Of a DNA stretch of 64,000 nt, positions 38,787 to 51,198 are shown piece after piece. Source of the stretch: Tomocerus qinae. Lineage: Eukaryota > Arthropoda > Collembola > Entomobryomorpha > Tomoceridae. The stretch lies in contig CM034547.1 in assembly GCA_020055645.1 (NCBI GenBank), positions 62,283,884-62,347,883 on the forward strand, in the 5' to 3' direction. A model generated the notes under the pieces. That model did no database searches, was not told the origin of the DNA, and saw only the letters and a list, made by a program, of their open reading frames with translations. A program made the translations under genes and the position numbers. Position 1 is the stretch's first letter. Each line of letters begins with the position of its first letter.

Positions 38787-40019
38787 ATGGATCGTAGCAA
38801 ACAAGCAATCGTCAACGTGGTGAGAATGAAGCTACAGATTTAGTTTTGCAAATCATTATTGTCCCATTATTTGCATAATGTTTTATCAAAGTGGGGTGTT
38901 GATTGATCAGGGTCCGATGTAAAATCCTAAACTTAAAAATGACCATAAATAAATGCTCTAGTAATTGTTGAAATCTATAATTTTCAGAAGGGGCTGAGCA
39001 AGATGTATGCAAATGCAAAGCCAGTAATAAATCCGGAGCACCAGTATGATCGTCAAGCCACTTTTCTTCGAATCAAAGATTTATTGGAAGAACGTGCCCG
39101 TGCAATGGAGAATTCGACTCGGCCAGAAGATAGACGAATACACGGATGGACTAATCAGACTTTCGATGAGAAATATATTTACCCACATATGTACAACAGA
39201 AGTCCTCCGTATTCTGACAATTTGGAATTCAACTCAACCCCACACAGTGGTTACTCTACAAACTCTAATGCCCATTTTTCAAGCAAAAGTCAAAGCACAA
39301 AGAAAAAATTCGTAAAACCAACTAAAAAGTATGTTTCACCTGCTGGACCGGACAGAAAGGTTTTTCGGGGTCAAAAGTCTATGCCTTACAACGCATACAC
39401 CTCAAGTTACGGCACATATCCAAATCACGCTATTTTGTCGATAGGAAATGCCGATCAAGGGATTCCAAGATGGGAAATTCGAGCTGTGCCACGAGATGGG
39501 CCAATACATGATCCGCGGATGAAGAGGAAGGTCATAATTGATGAAAAAACCCAGGTGAACCCTGGATTTCCCTTTCGAATAAAACCAAATGCGAACTACC
39601 CAGTGACACAAAGGATTCTCAAAAGTATTTTGAAGAAGGGACCAACCTATCCTGAACGTCTGGAAATGCTAAAGGTAAAGGCCATGCATGAACCGGAACT
39701 CAATATTCGGAAACAGACGTCCAGCGAAGAAATATTGATGGTGGCTAAGGAAAACGCTGCCAAGCGACAGGCTGTCAAAAATGCAAAAGCTAGAAAAGAA
39801 AGAATTCCCGTTGTTGAAAAGGCGACGCTGAATAACGAGGGCGGACCTGTTGTCACATGGCTGAGACCGGCCTTTGTACAATATGCTACTTCTGAAATGG
39901 TGGCAATGCCAGATGTCGTGATGGAAAGACTGAAAAAGACATCCATTACCCCAAGAGAGACAGAAGATTCTTCAGCAACAAGATCAACGCTCTCATCCTC
40001 ATTAGTAGCCACTGATTGA
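38787..40019 (+). CDS. Two-exon gene: 354-aa basic protein, function unknown
   Basis: Exon 2 (38988-40019) is the longest host coding stretch in the window. It follows a clean acceptor (ATAATTTTCAG) and stays open through five codons before its first internal ATG at 39003. A short first exon at 38787-38819 (11 codons, MDRSKQAIVNV) ends at a good donor, GTG|GTGAGA, in phase 0, and joins in frame across a 168-base intron. This gives 354 residues; without it the product starts at 39003 with 338 residues. The protein is basic. The middle part (about residues 85-135) is rich in serine, lysine and tyrosine. There is a lysine/alanine-rich, probably helical segment near residues 255-285. The C-terminal tail is serine/threonine-rich. 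I see no signal peptide, membrane segment or known domain. The reading frame is convincing; the first exon is inferred. Confidence 0.78.
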
Positions 40020-43288: not shown

Positions 43289-45847
43289 ATGGGCAATTTG
43301 TTAATCCAAATTTATTTCTCTTGATTTAAGTATGCACTCCGTAGTGCCATAGAACTACTGCTTATTGTGTGCAGTTCAAAATAATAAATAATTCGTTAAC
43401 TAAAAGGGTTAAAGTACGATAAGACTTATTTAATGCAATTTGCAATCACTCACCATAAAATTAGGCGATACGATAATTTTCCAATTCCAGTTGAGAACTG
43501 GCCTTTGAGACACTACTACTTATAAAATTAGACAGACCTCAACCTCAACAGCCTCACTATCAGTCTAAACATAGTCTCAGTTTATAATGTTATTATATGC
43601 GCCACTGCACTTGATTACCAGGGTCATCGGTCTCATGAAATCTTATTGCACAATGAAAACACTCGGCTAAGCCACTTAACTAAACTGATTCGTCATCTTA
43701 TCGGAAATAAACAAATTACAATTATAGTAGCTCTTCAACTTCATTATGCTCATGATTTAACTTTATGTTCCTTATTACTATTGGCAAAACAATTTCCATT
43801 ATGCCATTATGGGCCTTATTCATACCATAATATACTTTACATTGCTGCTGATTGATATCTTAAAGCTAGCTTTATTGAATGAGTGTGAATTAAGCCCAAT
43901 TTACATTCAAGAAGAAGGTTTATGTTTCACTATTTCATAATAGACACTTAAAAGTTCATATAGTCACACTTAACTATTCTTATTGTACACTAAATTTACT
44001 TTCACGTGCATAATGCAGTACAATTTGTACATGTTAATATAAGAAACAAATTAAATTCGCATGTAAAACAATTACCTTAATTTAATGCATTAAAATAATC
44101 TGAAAATCTGTAATTTAGTTTGTATTAATGATCTAGACTAGATTTTAAAATGGGCTAGTAAGTAGCACTGGGTAAATTAGAAAACATCATGTACTTATTA
44201 AATCAGCTGAGCAATGAAGTAAATAATTGTTATCATAACTGCTGATTACATTCTAAAGTACAGTGCGGTTGACCATAATTATTTACGATAATTAGTCGCT
44301 ACAGCTTCTTTCTGTCAGCTGCTATTTAAATCTAAATTAGCCAAGAAACGGAATTTATTGTTCACTTTCATCCTCTTTTAGTGAATGTTGATTTTAGTAA
44401 AGTGTTAAATAATGGAATCTAATATAGAATCTGTTGCATTATGAAATGTAAATGGATTTTCTCATCAAGTGAGACATGACGAGGGTGAGAGTAGTAACAT
44501 TGGCCGTATAAACCTTGATTTGCCATTTGTGCTGTCACTGTGTTAAGTGAAGAGGGATCTTTGGCATCTTTTCATTTAAATTAATCCCAAACACTCAATA
44601 TATCCACTTGAGCATAAATGTGCGAGCAAAATAACCGCCTGCCACAAATCTACGTAAATAGTATGCTCATGCATGTTCATATGAGGGAAATGTCAAGTGG
44701 TTATTTCATGAATATGCATATGAGAAAGCATTAGTCACAATAGTCACGTAAGGCACATCAACTTGGTGTGATCTCATAATTTTATTTAGTGACAGGTGTT
44801 GTGAATTTAGTTTTATGGCATGGTAAATGATCACATGTGCCTAACTAACTTCACCATTAGTCTCCTATTGAAATGCAAGTCCCATGCTCTACTTTCAGTT
44901 TTAATCAACTTCTCTGTGGGAATCAGAATAAATTATCAAATCCTAGGCGCAGCTCGATGTAACAGACGTAACGTCAAAAAAGATCATATCAACTATTACA
45001 TTCGAATTGAACATTTATTCGACTAACTTTTAGAAAGATTGCCTTTTAGCAACAGTAGTACATTTCATCTTTACATAAAATATACATAGAGTACATATAA
45101 CGAATTTGCAAAACAGTGGCAATTAAATCAACTTTGGTGATGTTTGTTGAATGTTACATTCCGAAACACACGTCTACGTAGAAAACCTCCTCTAGTCCCT
45201 TCTTTCCTTTTAGTTGGTGAATTTAGGAGAAACGAATGTCTATCTAGCTCTGAACTGAAGAGTGATTTGTCTATAAAACCCTTGGAGCATAAAAGCCAAG
45301 TCAGCCATCAAATTGTTCTCTGTTGTTCATCTGACACCCTACCTTGCTAGTAAATAAATCTCGCTGAAATCAGCAGAGTAATTCTTCTTGATCTCAGTCT
45401 ACATTTTATTTTTCTTATATAATAGATTAATAGATATAAGCCATAGTCTATCCAAATCAAAATCATGGCAAGAAGCTGTGCGCAACCTATTGTTATATTT
45501 TATCATTTTTACACGAAGCTATTTTACAACGCAAGTGACTGAATTAACATGAATTAGTAAAATTCTTTATTCAATTTGCTTTACTTTGTTTGCTTATAGC
45601 TTGTATAAGCAACCAAAATTTATGTAACTCCAGAAATTCATATTTATTTTGCTGTATTGCAATACAGAATGCCAATTAGACCGGAAAATATCGTCAAATC
45701 TCAAGTAGGTTTAACTAAATATTTTAACCAAGTTTGTCCACAGTCCACAACATTTTGGATTATATAACACAAACAGATTATGTAAGAAATTCCCCAAAAT
45801 TCTTCAGAATTTGTATATGTGTAGTCTTAGAATGAGATGTTTACACA
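43289..45847. other. AT-rich intergenic stretch
   Basis: No supported gene. A perfect 16-bp palindrome lies at 45652-45667. The region ends at the retrotransposon insertion site. Confidence 0.55.
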
Positions 45848-45852
45848 TGCAA
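45848..45852. repeat. Left target-site duplication of LTR element
   Basis: TGCAA, directly before the TG that opens the 5' LTR and repeated at 50292-50296 after the CA that closes the 3' LTR. Five-base duplications are usual for BEL/Pao integrases. Confidence 0.85.
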
Positions 45853-46465
45853 TGTACGAGACCTCTCGTGGTAACTTTCATCATTTTTCCAGACCACGCA
45901 CTAAAAAGTGCATTTTTATTCTATTTCAATTCCACTCAATTAAGTTGTAATTATTAAGCAATATTCTAAGCTATTCCTATCACTACATTCTGAACTAGAC
46001 GCTCAATGAGCATTCACTCTCTCTCTTGCTTCCAGAAAGCATCTTTGTAATTCTCTCTCGTGACAACGTGCAAGTTCATACTTCACTTGTCACCCTTTTT
46101 ATAATTAAATAAAATAGATTAGTAGTTAGTAAATAACTACAGTTTACAGTGCTTTATTTAGTAAACACATTTTCAATAAAGTACACACACTTAGCTAGCT
46201 AGCAAAGTTGACCAGCCGAACTGGAATTGACCGAAGCCTGCCTAGTCTAACCAGCCATCCTCCTGACACCAATTGTCACTCAACCTCAACAATCACCACA
46301 TCTCATCGTCATTTAATTGACATTCTTTTACCATACCGAACCAGCCGGATTTACGACCCGTCTGGAAGTGCCTTAGTGAATCATATTCATTTAAGTGCTA
46401 ATAATATTCAATCCCCAGTTAGTAGTACTAGTTTGGCATAGCGTCCTGCGTTCGCACCCCATTCA
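45853..46465 (+). repeat. 5' LTR
   Basis: 613 bp, beginning TGTACGAGACC and ending CCCCATTCA, with TG...CA termini. Read base by base, it appears identical to 49679-50291. It contains a TATA-like stretch near 46098-46110 and AATAAA at 46175-46180, placing R roughly at 46130-46200 and U5 after it. The 77-codon frame inside each LTR is a repeat by-product, not a gene. Confidence 0.92.
46098..46110 (+). promoter_or_regulatory. LTR TATA-like promoter element
   Basis: The stretch TTTATAATTAAAT follows a C-rich segment in the LTR and lies about 70 bases before the AATAAA at 46175-46180. It is the best candidate for the U3 core promoter. The transcription start is not determinable from sequence. 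Confidence 0.4.
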
Positions 46466-46466
46466 T

Positions 46467-46480
46467 TGGTCCTTCGAAGC
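46467..46480 (+). other. Primer-binding site
   Basis: TGGTCCTTCGAAGC begins one base after the 5' LTR. TGG complements the CCA end of a tRNA, and the position is exactly where minus-strand DNA synthesis is primed in LTR elements. I did not assign the specific primer tRNA. Confidence 0.7.
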
Positions 46481-46567
46481 AACGGATATTTTTGGACAAC
46501 CAAAATTGAACCGTAAGTTTGTGGTTTTTCAACGTAACGAGTGCTACTAACCGTTAACCGCCATTTA

Positions 46568-46742
46568 TTTGACGTCCAAAAGAAGACGATCAAACCAGAA
46601 ACCTCCCATCACCTATCGCTACCTGACGTTCAAAAGAAAACGGAAAAGGTAAATATCTCTCTCTACCTACTTGACGTTCAAAAGAAGACGATCAAGACAA
46701 ATCTCTTCATCTCATCTTGACGTACAAAAGATACGGATCAAG
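46568..46742 (+). repeat. Leader hairpin array (four tandem stem-loops, loop CAAAAGA)
   Basis: Four stem-loops lie between the primer-binding site and the Gag ATG. L1 46568-46594: TTTGA-CGTC pairs with GACG-A-TCAAA. L2 46621-46650: ACCT and CGTT pair with AACG and AGGT across an internal loop. L3 46670-46696: CTTGA-CGTT pairs with GACG-A-TCAAG, including one T-G wobble. L4 46716-46742: CTTGA-CGTA pairs with TACG-GA-TCAAG. All enclose CAAAAGA or CAAAAGAA. L1, L3 and L4 carry a one- or two-base purine bulge on the 3' side at the same place; L2 has a larger internal loop there. Spacing is 46-54 bases. Paired positions change together (loop-closing pair C-G, T-A, T-G, A-T; outermost pair T-A or C-G), which supports a conserved RNA structure. 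Function is unknown; packaging or dimerisation is plausible. Confidence 0.75.
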
Positions 46743-46820
46743 CCAAACCGCATCTCTCTACCTGACATACGTTAGTCATAATTTTAATTAAAATAATTAA
46801 AATAAAAATCATTCAGCACA

Positions 46821-49463
46821 ATGGATCCAATCAAAGCAGATCGCCGTGCACTCTCAGTTACCATAACACGCCTGCAGAAAGCCATCGCAATGTATGACGT
46901 CACTGCACCACCCTCACTTCCGGAAATCCTCATTCAAGAAGGAGATATCCAGCAAGCAAAAACAAAATGTGCTGCTCTCACCGAAAGAGCAAGTGCCGTC
47001 GCAAAATCAGACGCCGAATTCCTGACTGAAGCTGCAGAATTCGTCGTATTGGAAGACATAATCTCTAAAGCCAGCATCAAACTGGCAGAACTAAAAAGTA
47101 CTTATCCTACCGCACCCCCAGCAGGAGGAGCACCCTCCGCAGGAGCAGATATAAAGCTTCCAAAAATCGAAATACCTCCATTTAAAGGAAACACGCAAGA
47201 CTGGTTATCCTTTCAAGATCTCTTCATCTCATCAATACACAATAATGCAAAACTCTCTGGATCTCAGAAGATGCAATATCTAAAAGGATTATTGCAAGGT
47301 GAGCCAGCCAATTTAATTAAAGATATACCTGTCACCGACTTGAATTACAATCAAGCTTGGGACTCATTAAAATCAAGATACGAGATCAAGCGTGACATAA
47401 TCAGATCACACTTTGACCGCATCATCGCACTGCCAAACGTTGGGCAAGGAAACCCAACGTTACTGCGTAGAATAGCAGACACCACCAATGAAATTGACAG
47501 AGCTCTCTCAGTACTGAAACTCACACCTGAGCAGAAATGGGACTCTGCAATCATCCACATCATGTCCAGAAAATTGGATACAGAAACAAGAGTGAAATGG
47601 GAAGAGAATCTCACTTCGGATGAAATTCCAAGCATCCCCAAGTTCACCGAATTTATCATCACTCAAGCAAGAGCCACCGCAGCCGGAGGAGCAAAACCGA
47701 AGCCTCCACAGAATCCGAGCAGCAGTGGAAACGACAAAAAACAGGTACACTTACATACTAATCAAAATGAAAATTGTGGTTGTCCAAAGTGTAGTGGAAA
47801 GCACCCGCTACATAGATGTGCTGATTTCCGGGAAGCCACGCTCGATGACCGATGGAATTTGGTAAAAGGCGACAATTTATGCCGCATCTGTTTTGGAAAC
47901 CATCACACCTCAGACTGTACCGCGCCATTCACCTGCAAAAAAGGTTGCGAAAATAAACACAACATACTACTGTGCAGAAAGCACAAACCGAAGTCCGCCC
48001 CACCGAAGAAAGTGGAACACGTTGTCCAAGAGGATGACAACGCATCGGAAACTCCAGAAGAAAATCCGATATTGAAAAATTATTTCTCTCATACTGGAAG
48101 AAAATCTCAAGTTCTTCTGGCCACAGCTCTAATCTATGTAAAAGATTCCAGAAACAATTATCAAGTATGCAGAGCTCTACTTGATAGCGGGTCTCAAGGA
48201 AGTTTCATGACAGCAAAATGTGCAACTGGCCTTGGACTCAAGAAGACAAACAAGATTGTCAATATTATGGGACTTGGAGGAATCGACACCGGAACAGTCA
48301 CCAAGTCTGTCAACTGTGTGTTCACCCCAATCCACGACAAAGAGAAGAGTTTCTACGTGGAAGCCTTCATCAAGCCTAAGATCACCGAAGATCTACCCAC
48401 CCACCAAGTCGAACCGAAGACTTGGCCACACATTGAAGGGCTCAAATTAGCCGACCCTCACTTTCACACTCCAGGTAAAATTGATATATTACTTGGATGT
48501 GATATCTATGATCAGCTTGTTTTAGAAAGCAAGAAAACTGGACCACCGGGAACCCCAACTGCCAGAGAGACAGAATTGGGATGGATTCTCAGCGGCCCTC
48601 TCACTACACCAGAACCAACCTTCACTTGTGCTCATACAAGTTGCGATTTGAAAATCAAGAATCAAACTCGCAAGAATCCTGTCATCATCGACAAAAAGAA
48701 AATACCCACCCCAACTATCAACTCATCCGCCGACGCCGACTTAGAAGAAATCAGTCGGAAGAGACAAATGGCTGCCAGACTTTCGGCAAAAGCTGAATGT
48801 TCTTCCAGCCCATCTCAACAAATGCAACCAGAACCAGCAAGTTCTTCTTTAAATCATGTGACTAGAATTTATCAGTTGGAAGATAAACTTGAAAATATCA
48901 AGAAATATCTCGAGAAAAAGGGATTAGCTCACCAAGAGCTCAAAACTAAATATCAATACCAGGAGCAAGAACTCAACTGCCTCCTGTATAAATATAAACA
49001 TATAATCCGACTAATAAAACTTCAGCAAAATGGAGATTTTATAATCAAGTATTCGCCAGAGATGGAAGCAAGTGTCAATTCCAAAGTGAGTACCGCTCCT
49101 CCATCTGACTCAACTAATCATGCTGCATCGGCCCGCGACAAGACTCCGGAACCAGCAGCAGCCACCAACAACAACAAACACACAACCCCTCCAACCAAGG
49201 AGGAAGATGAGGACACACCTCAAACAATTAAAGACATCGAAGTGGAGAGGAAATCCACACGAGATAAAAATTCATCTCAAGCCATTGAAGCGGGGAGGAA
49301 ACCCGCACGAGACATATCATATCAACACACCGAAGTGGAGAGGAAATCCACACGAGACTTACCCGATCATGACCACTCGCCAGAAAAGAAACCTGGACGA
49401 ATGAAAGCCAACGAACACATCGAACCTGGGAGGAAACCAGGACGAGAAACCCTCAAGGAGTGA
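46821..49463 (+). CDS. BEL/Pao Gag-protease polyprotein with coiled-coil and repeat tail
   Basis: 880 codons, ATG with A at -3, stop TGA. Residues about 113-285 match the BEL/Pao Gag region (DUF1759 type; LPKIEIPPFKG then DWLSFQDLF). Cysteine/histidine clusters at about 321-333, 354-366 and 372-389 are nucleic-acid-binding zinc knuckles. Residues about 430-595 are the DUF1758-type retropepsin-like protease: LLDSGSQ at 453-459 with catalytic Asp455, and the family's closing ELGWILSG at 585-592. In relatives the reverse transcriptase starts soon after this; here it is missing. Instead there is a charged linker, a predicted coiled coil (about 678-735) and five 15-16-residue repeats (about 806-880) with ERK/GRK cores. 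The repeats coincide with RNA hairpins. The product should assemble particles and process itself, but cannot copy or integrate DNA alone. Confidence 0.9.
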   Translation: MDPIKADRRALSVTITRLQKAIAMYDVTAPPSLPEILIQEGDIQQAKTKCAALTERASAVAKSDAEFLTEAAEFVVLEDIISKASIKLAELKSTYPTAPPAGGAPSAGADIKLPKIEIPPFKGNTQDWLSFQDLFISSIHNNAKLSGSQKMQYLKGLLQGEPANLIKDIPVTDLNYNQAWDSLKSRYEIKRDIIRSHFDRIIALPNVGQGNPTLLRRIADTTNEIDRALSVLKLTPEQKWDSAIIHIMSRKLDTETRVKWEENLTSDEIPSIPKFTEFIITQARATAAGGAKPKPPQNPSSSGNDKKQVHLHTNQNENCGCPKCSGKHPLHRCADFREATLDDRWNLVKGDNLCRICFGNHHTSDCTAPFTCKKGCENKHNILLCRKHKPKSAPPKKVEHVVQEDDNASETPEENPILKNYFSHTGRKSQVLLATALIYVKDSRNNYQVCRALLDSGSQGSFMTAKCATGLGLKKTNKIVNIMGLGGIDTGTVTKSVNCVFTPIHDKEKSFYVEAFIKPKITEDLPTHQVEPKTWPHIEGLKLADPHFHTPGKIDILLGCDIYDQLVLESKKTGPPGTPTARETELGWILSGPLTTPEPTFTCAHTSCDLKIKNQTRKNPVIIDKKKIPTPTINSSADADLEEISRKRQMAARLSAKAECSSSPSQQMQPEPASSSLNHVTRIYQLEDKLENIKKYLEKKGLAHQELKTKYQYQEQELNCLLYKYKHIIRLIKLQQNGDFIIKYSPEMEASVNSKVSTAPPSDSTNHAASARDKTPEPAAATNNNKHTTPPTKEEDEDTPQTIKDIEVERKSTRDKNSSQAIEAGRKPARDISYQHTEVERKSTRDLPDHDHSPEKKPGRMKANEHIEPGRKPGRETLKE
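49242..49441 (+). repeat. 3' hairpin array inside the ORF (five tandem stem-loops, loop GAGGAAA)
   Basis: Stem-loops at 49242-49258, 49290-49306, 49335-49351, 49380-49396 and 49425-49441, spaced 48, 45, 45 and 45 bases. The 5-bp stems are GTGGA/TCCAC, GCGGG/CCCGC, GTGGA/TCCAC, CCAGA/CCTGG (four pairs plus one mismatch) and CCTGG/CCAGG. The 7-base loop is GAGGAAA in four and AAAGAAA in the fourth. ACGAGA follows each of the four strong hairpins and ACGAAT follows the weaker one. GAA precedes all but the fourth. Four of the five stem positions change in a compensatory manner while the loop stays fixed. The array sits in the last 75 codons of the Gag-protease ORF, so it is constrained both as protein repeat and as RNA structure. 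Confidence 0.82.
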
Positions 49464-49678
49464 TTGGCACACGTTGGCCACTGCCACCTCCACCATCATC
49501 TCTTCAATAATCAATTTATTATTTATCTCATTCATATTTAAATAATATTTCTCTCAATATTCATTTCTTTGATAATTACGTACATCTAATACTTAAGATT
49601 ATTTCATGCCGTAATTTTATCTAATCAATTTAAAAACTCTCTTTTCTTTTTGAAATAAGTATTTCAACGGGAGGTGTA
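49464..49678 (+). other. 3' non-coding region and polypurine tract
   Basis: 215 bases between the ORF stop and the 3' LTR, AT-rich, with no trace of pol. The purine run GGGAGG at 49669-49674, just before the LTR, is the best polypurine-tract candidate for plus-strand priming, although it is short and separated from the LTR by four bases. Confidence 0.5.
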
Positions 49679-50291
49679 TGTACGAGACCTCTCGTGGTAA
49701 CTTTCATCATTTTTCCAGACCACGCACTAAAAAGTGCATTTTTATTCTATTTCAATTCCACTCAATTAAGTTGTAATTATTAAGCAATATTCTAAGCTAT
49801 TCCTATCACTACATTCTGAACTAGACGCTCAATGAGCATTCACTCTCTCTCTTGCTTCCAGAAAGCATCTTTGTAATTCTCTCTCGTGACAACGTGCAAG
49901 TTCATACTTCACTTGTCACCCTTTTTATAATTAAATAAAATAGATTAGTAGTTAGTAAATAACTACAGTTTACAGTGCTTTATTTAGTAAACACATTTTC
50001 AATAAAGTACACACACTTAGCTAGCTAGCAAAGTTGACCAGCCGAACTGGAATTGACCGAAGCCTGCCTAGTCTAACCAGCCATCCTCCTGACACCAATT
50101 GTCACTCAACCTCAACAATCACCACATCTCATCGTCATTTAATTGACATTCTTTTACCATACCGAACCAGCCGGATTTACGACCCGTCTGGAAGTGCCTT
50201 AGTGAATCATATTCATTTAAGTGCTAATAATATTCAATCCCCAGTTAGTAGTACTAGTTTGGCATAGCGTCCTGCGTTCGCACCCCATTCA
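49679..50291 (+). repeat. 3' LTR
   Basis: 613 bp, the same length as the 5' LTR and without a difference in my base-by-base reading. The R-region AATAAA at 50001-50006 would end the element's transcript. Identity of both LTRs implies that little time has passed since insertion, unless gene conversion has homogenised them. Confidence 0.92.
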
Positions 50292-50296
50292 TGCAA
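50292..50296. repeat. Right target-site duplication of LTR element
   Basis: TGCAA, matching 45848-45852. It fixes the LTR boundaries to the base. Confidence 0.85.
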
Positions 50297-51198
50297 CGTG
50301 ATACTGCATCTCTCCATTAAATACTTACACGTGCTGAGGAGATTGAGTACAGGTTTTGATAGTGATAGTGACTAACTTTGGTTTACTCAGGATCATTTGA
50401 ATCTGTGCTGATATAAGAAGTGTTGGTTGGTCGAAGGAGAAATGTGGTGGGGGTAGAACGCACTATGCATAGTATATGTAGTTGACCATAAAATATTTCT
50501 GTGGTAGTAACTTTGGTGTAAAGTTGGGTGTGTGTACAGAGATGAAGCATTATTAATTCATAAACTCTTTTCACTCTCCCATGCACTTTTCCTTTTAAGA
50601 AATTTACAACTGGGTATATAATTTTTACGATTGTTTTGCATGGCCTTTTTCCTTACTTTCCTCCTCTCTCTCTCAACTTTCTACCCTCCACCTTTCAAAA
50701 TTGATGCACTCTACTACTGCGTAGATAACAAATATACTTAACTATACACACACCCTATAGATAGTGCAAATACATTAAAATATCTACACAACTTTTTTAC
50801 GTTATTCTACCTATGTTTCTTGTACTACACGTTTATATCTACCCTACTGGTTGAAAGGTTTGGCAGTAAATACTATTTTCTCTCCATAGAAGTAAAGTGA
50901 GGAGTAACAGGGTATCGTGAAAGTATTATAGCAGCAAAGTCAGTTATCTAATCACTCACTTAAACGCACTACTACTAACTTATAGGGAAATGAATAAGAA
51001 GGATTTTGTTGAATTATCATCTTATTATAAAGAATATGCAATATCTGCATTTTATGGTGTTTTCCATATCAAAATTTTCAGCAACAGTTTAATTAAATCA
51101 TAGTACCTGTATTGTTTTTGCATTTTATTATTTGCCTGATTCAAATTATCAGTTCAATAGGAGATTTATTAAGAAAGAACGGAGAACGAAAGTTTATT
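50297..51198. other. AT-rich flank of the retroelement
   Basis: No gene, RNA or repeat is recognised. It is ordinary AT-rich sequence continuing from the region left of the insertion. Confidence 0.5.

Follow-up and report, generated by a model that had tools for sequence, protein, structure and literature searches.

A covarying hairpin array over the last codons of BEL/Pao retrotransposons in Tomocerus qinae, most likely a cis-acting RNA element of one clade

Introduction

A 64,000-nucleotide stretch of contig CM034547.1 of the springtail Tomocerus qinae (assembly GCA_020055645.1, positions 62,283,884 to 62,347,883, forward strand; hereafter the window) contains a BEL/Pao long terminal repeat (LTR) retrotransposon whose only long open reading frame (ORF) ends in a row of short hairpins. 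Are these repeats kept for the structure of the RNA or for the peptide that they encode? An earlier note on this DNA had argued for the RNA, from compensatory stem changes among the repeats. Here we follow the array through the window's own 334-Mb assembly and compare it with other BEL elements. The hairpins are very probably selected as structure, that is, as hairpins of single-stranded nucleic acid, and the array, judged from sequence, most likely acts in cis as an RNA element, one that belongs to a single BEL/Pao clade and overlaps the last codons of the ORF.

Results

Five in-frame hairpins end the Gag-protease ORF

The earlier description of five tandem hairpins at the 3' end of a retroelement ORF was borne out. 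The array lies in the last 200 coding bases, and its 17-nt units, each with a 5-bp stem and a 7-nt loop, start at 49242, 49290, 49335, 49380 and 49425 (spacing 48/45/45/45), all in frame.

46821..49463, + strand: 880-aa Gag-protease ORF, the element's only long ORF; its tail codes the hairpin array
49242..49258, + strand: hairpin unit 1, GTGGA-GAGGAAA-TCCAC; -5.2 kcal/mol; covariance model 55.0 bits
49290..49306, + strand: hairpin unit 2, GCGGG-GAGGAAA-CCCGC; covariance model 53.1 bits
49335..49351, + strand: hairpin unit 3, GTGGA-GAGGAAA-TCCAC; covariance model 50.4 bits
49380..49396, + strand: hairpin unit 4, CCAGA-AAAGAAA-CCTGG; one A-C mismatch, different loop; covariance model 34.1 bits
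49425..49441, + strand: hairpin unit 5, CCTGG-GAGGAAA-CCAGG; -7.3 kcal/mol; covariance model 48.2 bits

The note had also described a fixed GAGGAAA loop and a kept ACGAGA after the stem. Both hold for units 1, 2, 3 and 5; unit 4 has the loop AAAGAAA and the 3' flank ACGAAT in addition to its A-C mismatch, and five of the seven window-family copies have a fully paired CCAGG/CCTGG stem at this position. The 234-nt array region folds with z = -3.09, none of 200 shuffles being as good. Its minimum free energy fold cross-pairs units 1 and 3, which have identical arms, and the centroid structure consists of five separate hairpins. No Rfam family matched up to E = 1 within 45800-50400.

Intact hairpins recur in five families of elements

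With the array DNA as query, 31 matches were found in the assembly, and about 900 bases were fetched around 26 places, plus two further places found by pattern. We made a covariance model from 29 distinct units and counted its matches at E <= 0.01; it gave 70 units in 29 loci, of which 65 are fully Watson-Crick, 2 are complete with one G-U pair and 3 are broken. Uncompensated stem changes in other copies, which the earlier note had named as grounds for refutation, are few: 67 of the 70 units keep all five pairs, 2 of them by way of a G-U pair. The broken ones are CCAGA/CCTGG in the window copy and in locus L010, and one unit in the decayed copy L017. Outside the 70 stand a weak unit in L017 (E 3.1) and a decayed unit in L015, recognised by eye and missed by the model.

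Because the model was made from 29 of the same sequences, its matches lean towards structure. The scan GAA-N5-GAGGAAA-N5-ACG, in which loop and flanks are specified and any stem is allowed, is without that lean, and it gave 75 matches in the genome versus 17 for the reversed pattern. Pairing was 5/5 (G-U allowed) in 57 of the 75 and 0-3 in the other 18; 56 of the 57 are stems of the BEL arrays, and the last one, rich in T/A and with two G-U pairs, is unrelated to them. When the pattern was extended to ACGAGA and run on viral contigs, none of the 13 matches paired 5/5 and two had four pairs. Chance hairpins were rejected on these grounds: the reversed-pattern control, the pairing of the scan matches and the viral-contig control. 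As for BEL elements in viral contigs, none of 33 pattern matches was confirmed.

The 29 loci with units comprise five families, grouped by eye, and one decayed copy. Family A, the window type, codes for Gag-protease and has 4-5 units per copy (34 units in 7 copies); family E has two copies with 3 intact units each and is of Gag type by a domain test of one. Family B is autonomous, with 3 units per copy (2 in L066; 14 units in 5 copies). Pieces of one B copy matched DUF1759, Peptidase_A17 and the integrase zinc domain above cut-offs, RVT_1 and rve below them, and DUF5641 at the 3' end over its cut-off; the frame of this copy is broken, and another copy has a 1778-aa open frame. Family C is a single copy (L065 = L087) with 1 unit and a 1755-aa open frame with DUF5641, and from these features is presumably autonomous. 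Family D comprises deletion relatives of C, 13 copies with 1 unit each. The hairpins of B (3 or 2) lie directly 3' of the integrase tail, and C has one hairpin. Loop and flanks are common to the Gag-type families A and E and to the autonomous family B, and the Gag proteins of A and B are 73% identical over 258 aligned residues. The Gag-type families and family B may be non-autonomous and helper partners.

Stems covary while the encoded peptide changes

In an alignment of 33 distinct units, pairing is kept in 98.8% of pair cells; changes on both sides occur at four of the five pairs, and 52 cells are double changes. Among the five units of the window, too, four of five pair positions change on both sides, as the earlier note had it. 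The covariation score was 0.815, compared with 0.253 (sd 0.035) in shuffles, of which 0/500 reached it, and with at most 0.183 in slid controls; shuffles break the relatedness of the units and slid controls retain it. The 29 distinct units taken from the loop-and-flank pattern were 99.3% paired, with a covariation of 0.839. The cruder measure of pairs with change on both sides did not differ from shuffles (441/500 reach the observed value), and the fifth pair, G-C, is invariant and so uninformative. These counts are per sequence, not per event; by our own count, which allows for unseen intermediates, the six Watson-Crick stems require at least seven pair replacements.

Selection could also act on the peptide that these codons encode, a basic repeat E-x-x-R-K-x-x-R-D that might serve integrase or Gag as, for example, a nuclear localisation signal or a tail that binds nucleic acid; RNA structure would then be an additional or minor constraint. 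The array is in frame in families A, B and C, its R-K and R-D codons hardly vary, and Ty1 integrase offers a parallel with its basic C-terminal tail. Such dual coding fails to predict the paired changes of codons 1/2 with 5/6 or the matched third positions. At the protein level, V-E goes with S-T, A-G with P-A, P-G with P-G, T-E with S-V and A-A with A-A, and third codon positions match across the stem as G-C, A-U and U-A. When the right halves of the six unit types were dealt to the left halves, only 2 of 720 arrangements were pairable, both amounting to the trivial swap of the two P-G units. When synonymous codons were redrawn, 5/5 pairing was retained at 0.16-0.26 per unit (product 1e-4).

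Family D bears on the same point, for its long frame crosses the hairpin in another phase. This frame is open for at least 501 codons upstream, to the edge of the stretch, in four of seven copies examined and for 243-304 codons in the other three. The 13 D copies had first been found through the hairpin itself. A query of 331 upstream bases alone returned the same 13 at 86-100% identity; its further matches were the C copy (80%), a partial match at C1:86859343 (157/331 bases) and 14 more distant BEL places, so that no full-length D copy lacking the hairpin was missed by it. The hairpin is intact in all 13. Protein repeats alone are disfavoured twice, by the paired codon changes and by family D, which keeps the hairpin though its long frame reads it in another phase. 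Of the earlier claim of selection on RNA structure rather than on protein repeats alone, the selected hairpin structure stands, on the covariation and the copies; an additional role of the codons at the protein level is unlikely.

Hairpins vary less than the spacers between them

A query from outside the array (48700-49080) recovered seven window-family copies at 92-100% identity, plus two short pieces of a related locus. All seven family-A copies have the array, L014 without unit 1. Minority letters in these copies amount to 3/578 in stem and loop versus 28/685 in the spacers of the same array (Fisher p 2.6e-5), an approximately eightfold lower variation; the values are 2/204 for the six bases after the stem, 69/1484 for upstream coding sequence and 42/1285 for the 3' untranslated region. 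Homogenisation of the units was considered and rejected, as stems stay unit-specific at their positions across the family-A copies.

Paired changes might also arise without selection, if template switching during reverse transcription perfected near-palindromes. These elements do replicate by reverse transcription, and their 3' region is prone to repeats, as seen in sister elements below. Such a mutation bias leaves the near-constant loop and flanks and the fixed 5/7/5 geometry unexplained, and it sits poorly with hairpins that vary eight times less than the spacers beside them and with unit-specific stems that hold their positions. We consider it quite unlikely.

The array is confined to one clade among the BEL elements examined

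Hairpins are present in 4 of the 30 best DUF5641 loci in the genome and missing from the other 26, and none was seen in 16 more that are among the nearest to family B; in this survey 150 of 568 DUF5641 candidates were scored, so the sample is not random. Run on all 46 loci, the covariance model found units solely in the 4, with three weak, chance-level matches elsewhere (E 1.7-4.5). The repeat motif with D/E occurred in 0 of 191 homologues among the matches listed (120 of 126 integrase-tail and 71 Gag); a loose form was present in the last 120 residues, once each, of 1/120 integrase-tail and 3/71 Gag homologues, and a narrower one in 0/120 integrase-tail homologues. Allacma fusca, a springtail, is the source of the first named integrase-tail homologue among the matches listed. 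Within the reach of these data, a single BEL clade has acquired the array. The earlier suggestion that it is not a standard BEL/Pao feature agrees with this, with the qualification that hairpins also follow the integrase C-terminus of an autonomous family.

At the same place as the array, in the non-coding stretch past the pol stop, 8 of the 16 sister loci (L101, L102, L104, L105, L106, L109, L110 and L112) have 21-nt tandem repeats in about 5-11 copies, with the palindrome TTCAGCTGAA in many units. The place itself therefore gathers repeats. A consistent stem was not seen in them, and they were rejected as hairpins of the same kind. Separately, L107 has 71-nt repeats at about 133-298 on the reverse strand with a hairpin GCCATT-ACCCCTCC-AATGGC; by eye, the outer pair is G-U in the second copy and the third copy is unpaired.

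A second hairpin adjoins the polypurine tract

49650..49667, + strand: hairpin TTGAAAT-AAGT-ATTTCAA, adjoining the polypurine tract and covarying among BEL families
49668..49678, + strand: probable polypurine tract CGGGAGGTGTA, from sequence and position before the 3' LTR
46565..46748, + strand: leader array of four tandem imperfect hairpins in the window 5' leader, loop CAAAAGAA or close

A hairpin of 7-8 bp lies directly 5' of the polypurine tract in most BEL 3' ends examined, among them window 49650-49667 and the 3' ends of L070-L101, L103-L109 and L111-L115. It pairs 7/7 (G-U allowed) in 45 of 55, one of which, L078, is a misplaced fit; in two of the 55, L102 and L110, the tract lies outside the fetched stretch. 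Stricter anchoring gave 39/48 at 7/7, with 7 loci lacking the anchor. Its stems include TTGAAAT, TTGAGAT, TTGGATT, TTGAGTC, TTGAGAA and TAGAAAG with matching partners. The 12 distinct arm pairs include one misfit; together, 73/84 of their positions pair versus 61.7 in shuffles (0/2000), a modest contrast because many arms share TTGA. This tract hairpin is more widespread here than the array.

Could the array likewise act near the tract, on RNA or on single-stranded DNA, as a signal in reverse transcription or in integration? It lies about 230-430 nt upstream of the polypurine tract, and most BEL 3' ends examined also have the tract-abutting hairpin. Against such a role, families C and D combine a different tract sequence with the same loop, and the array is absent in most BEL 3' ends surveyed, which makes this explanation highly improbable. 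A link between loop and tract through GGGAGG, present in both in family A, was dropped for the same reason that the tract differs in C and D and the loop does not.

Leader repeats with hairpin potential occur in 7/7 family-A copies (including L116-L121), with differing copy number, and were not seen in one family-B leader examined.

The host element is a young, non-autonomous BEL/Pao insertion

A single LTR retrotransposon of BEL/Pao type occupies window 45848-50296. Its 5' and 3' LTRs are identical across their full length by sequence comparison, so the insertion is young.

45848..45852, + strand: target site duplication TGCAA, left copy, 5 bp, flanking the 5' LTR
45853..46465, + strand: 5' LTR, identical to the 3' LTR
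46467..46480, + strand: probable primer binding site, from sequence and position, starting one base past the 5' LTR
49679..50291, + strand: 3' LTR, identical to the 5' LTR
50292..50296, + strand: target site duplication TGCAA, right copy, 5 bp, flanking the 3' LTR

A stretch near-identical to this primer binding site also follows the family-B LTR. The 880-aa ORF matched DUF1759 (BEL Gag; E 1.3e-38) and, below curated cut-offs, aspartic protease, and CCHC-like fingers were recognised in it by eye. No domain match to reverse transcriptase (RT), RNase H or integrase was found in the window copy, which is thus not autonomous by this test. The ORF has 71 homologues among the matches listed, the best with 37% identity across 59% of the query, and those named are mostly from insects and other arthropods. 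Between protease and array (window 48880-49030), this Gag-only family has a charged stretch, coiled-coil-like by eye, in the place where RT and integrase would be; for residues 620-880, which hold this stretch and the tail, no relatives were found at E <= 1 among 2309 candidates. At the start of the 3' LTR, window 49682-49695 is an inverted repeat, ACGAGA-CC-TCTCGT. Four of the five hairpin units are followed by ACGAGA as well, which would allow pairing between the array and the beginning of the LTR. Elsewhere in the window, a 338-aa ORF at 39003-40019 had no Pfam match.

Discussion

What would a selected hairpin array do for these elements? A near-constant loop, a stem that is free but paired, and repetition are what is expected of a protein-binding RNA with several sites. 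The short tandem hairpins would present the purine loop GAGGAAA, each hairpin being flanked by unpaired GAA on its 5' side and ACGAGA on its 3' side, and the stem could change in sequence provided that its arms pair. Each loop may be a binding site for the zinc-finger region of the element's own Gag, one of the binders that the earlier note had suggested. Several sites in a row may add avidity, and loop-bound Gag would single out the full-length RNA to be packaged in the particle. We regard this packaging role as quite possible, though short of probable. Gag is favoured as the binder because the signal is common to autonomous and Gag-only families, because Gag has finger motifs and because of the parallel with the RGAG loops of hepatitis B virus (HBV) discussed below. 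Having no RT and integrase of its own, a Gag-only element would depend on such a signal to enter particles together with an element that provides them. A little more tentatively, the array may be a dual-coded 3' Gag-recognition array, unlike a 5' psi, which Gag-only derivatives have kept in order to share the particles of autonomous relatives.

Several results weigh against this account. In the survey, 42 of 46 BEL 3' ends are without the array, which can therefore be no general requirement of BEL packaging, and the single hairpin of families C and D implies that tandem avidity is not essential. Units do decay, with the A-C mismatch in two of seven family-A copies, the decayed unit of L015 and the broken units of L017. 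One-sided stem changes go both ways, two distinct ones giving a G-U pair on the sense strand and one (A-C) a G-U pair on the antisense strand only, and hence do not settle the strand. In family D, variable columns number 0/17 in the hairpin, 76/340 upstream and 45/150 downstream (Fisher p 0.03 versus upstream, 0.017 versus upstream and downstream); this favours a conserved hairpin, but the support is moderate and not decisive, since the copies are related and another 30-column upstream stretch is invariant too.

A host protein might read the array instead, as an element for export, stability or localisation that takes unspliced RNA out of the nucleus or to the germ line. Candidate readers are an NXF1/RBM15-type export factor, an SR protein or a transport adaptor, and the M-PMV CTE and the IAP RTE are retroelement RNA transport elements of this kind. 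The array sits 3', before the LTR, like the CTE, its purine-rich loop and flanks are nearly fixed, and it is independent of the reading frame, as family D shows. However, sister BEL families, presumably with the same need, are without the array. Structured transport elements are known in retroelements, as PMC3362945 describes for the MusD MTE, and they resemble the array in being cis-acting structured RNA within a retroelement transcript; that element is a complex fold there, unlike the isolated, repeated 5-bp hairpins here. On balance we find a host-read element rather unlikely.

Among known packaging signals, retroviral psi hairpins such as HIV-1 SL3 and the MLV stem-loops have exposed G bases that are bound by CCHC fingers, mainly in the 5' leader. 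The array resembles them in its hairpins with exposed G bases and in belonging to an element with CCHC-like fingers (by eye), and differs in lying in the last codons before the stop. In plant LTR retrotransposons, the region from pol to the 3' LTR has tandem repeats that change fast, and we know of no covarying stems in them; the present array, by contrast, is coding and its stems covary. The closest parallels are the dispersed packaging-signal stem-loops of HBV (PS1-PS3), MS2 and STNV. According to PMC7612645, the HBV signals are likewise several short hairpins with a common loop motif and site-specific stems, and their loops present RGAG. Most array units read RGAG across the 5' edge of the loop, the exceptions being the GCGGC, GCGGT and CCAGG units. 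Compared with the HBV type as described there, our hairpins are in tandem, evenly spaced and at the 3' end only, their stems covary within one element, and their protein partner is a candidate.

For the tract hairpin, stem-loops that expose the polypurine tract in LTR elements are described, and a systematic search is called for, in PMC3601003. Both are structures near the tract, but the published ones hold the tract in the loop with one arm in the LTR, whereas the BEL hairpin lies wholly upstream of it. By titles and abstract starts, no structured RNA element or hairpin array of this kind in BEL/Pao was found in the open-access literature.

How Gag recognises BEL/Pao RNAs has, to our knowledge, been little studied. 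A nearly constant loop on freely changing stems is a natural experiment that names the bases to test and supplies six Watson-Crick stem variants as controls. Gag-only elements with this signal in common with autonomous ones would make the sharing of particles between retrotransposons testable.

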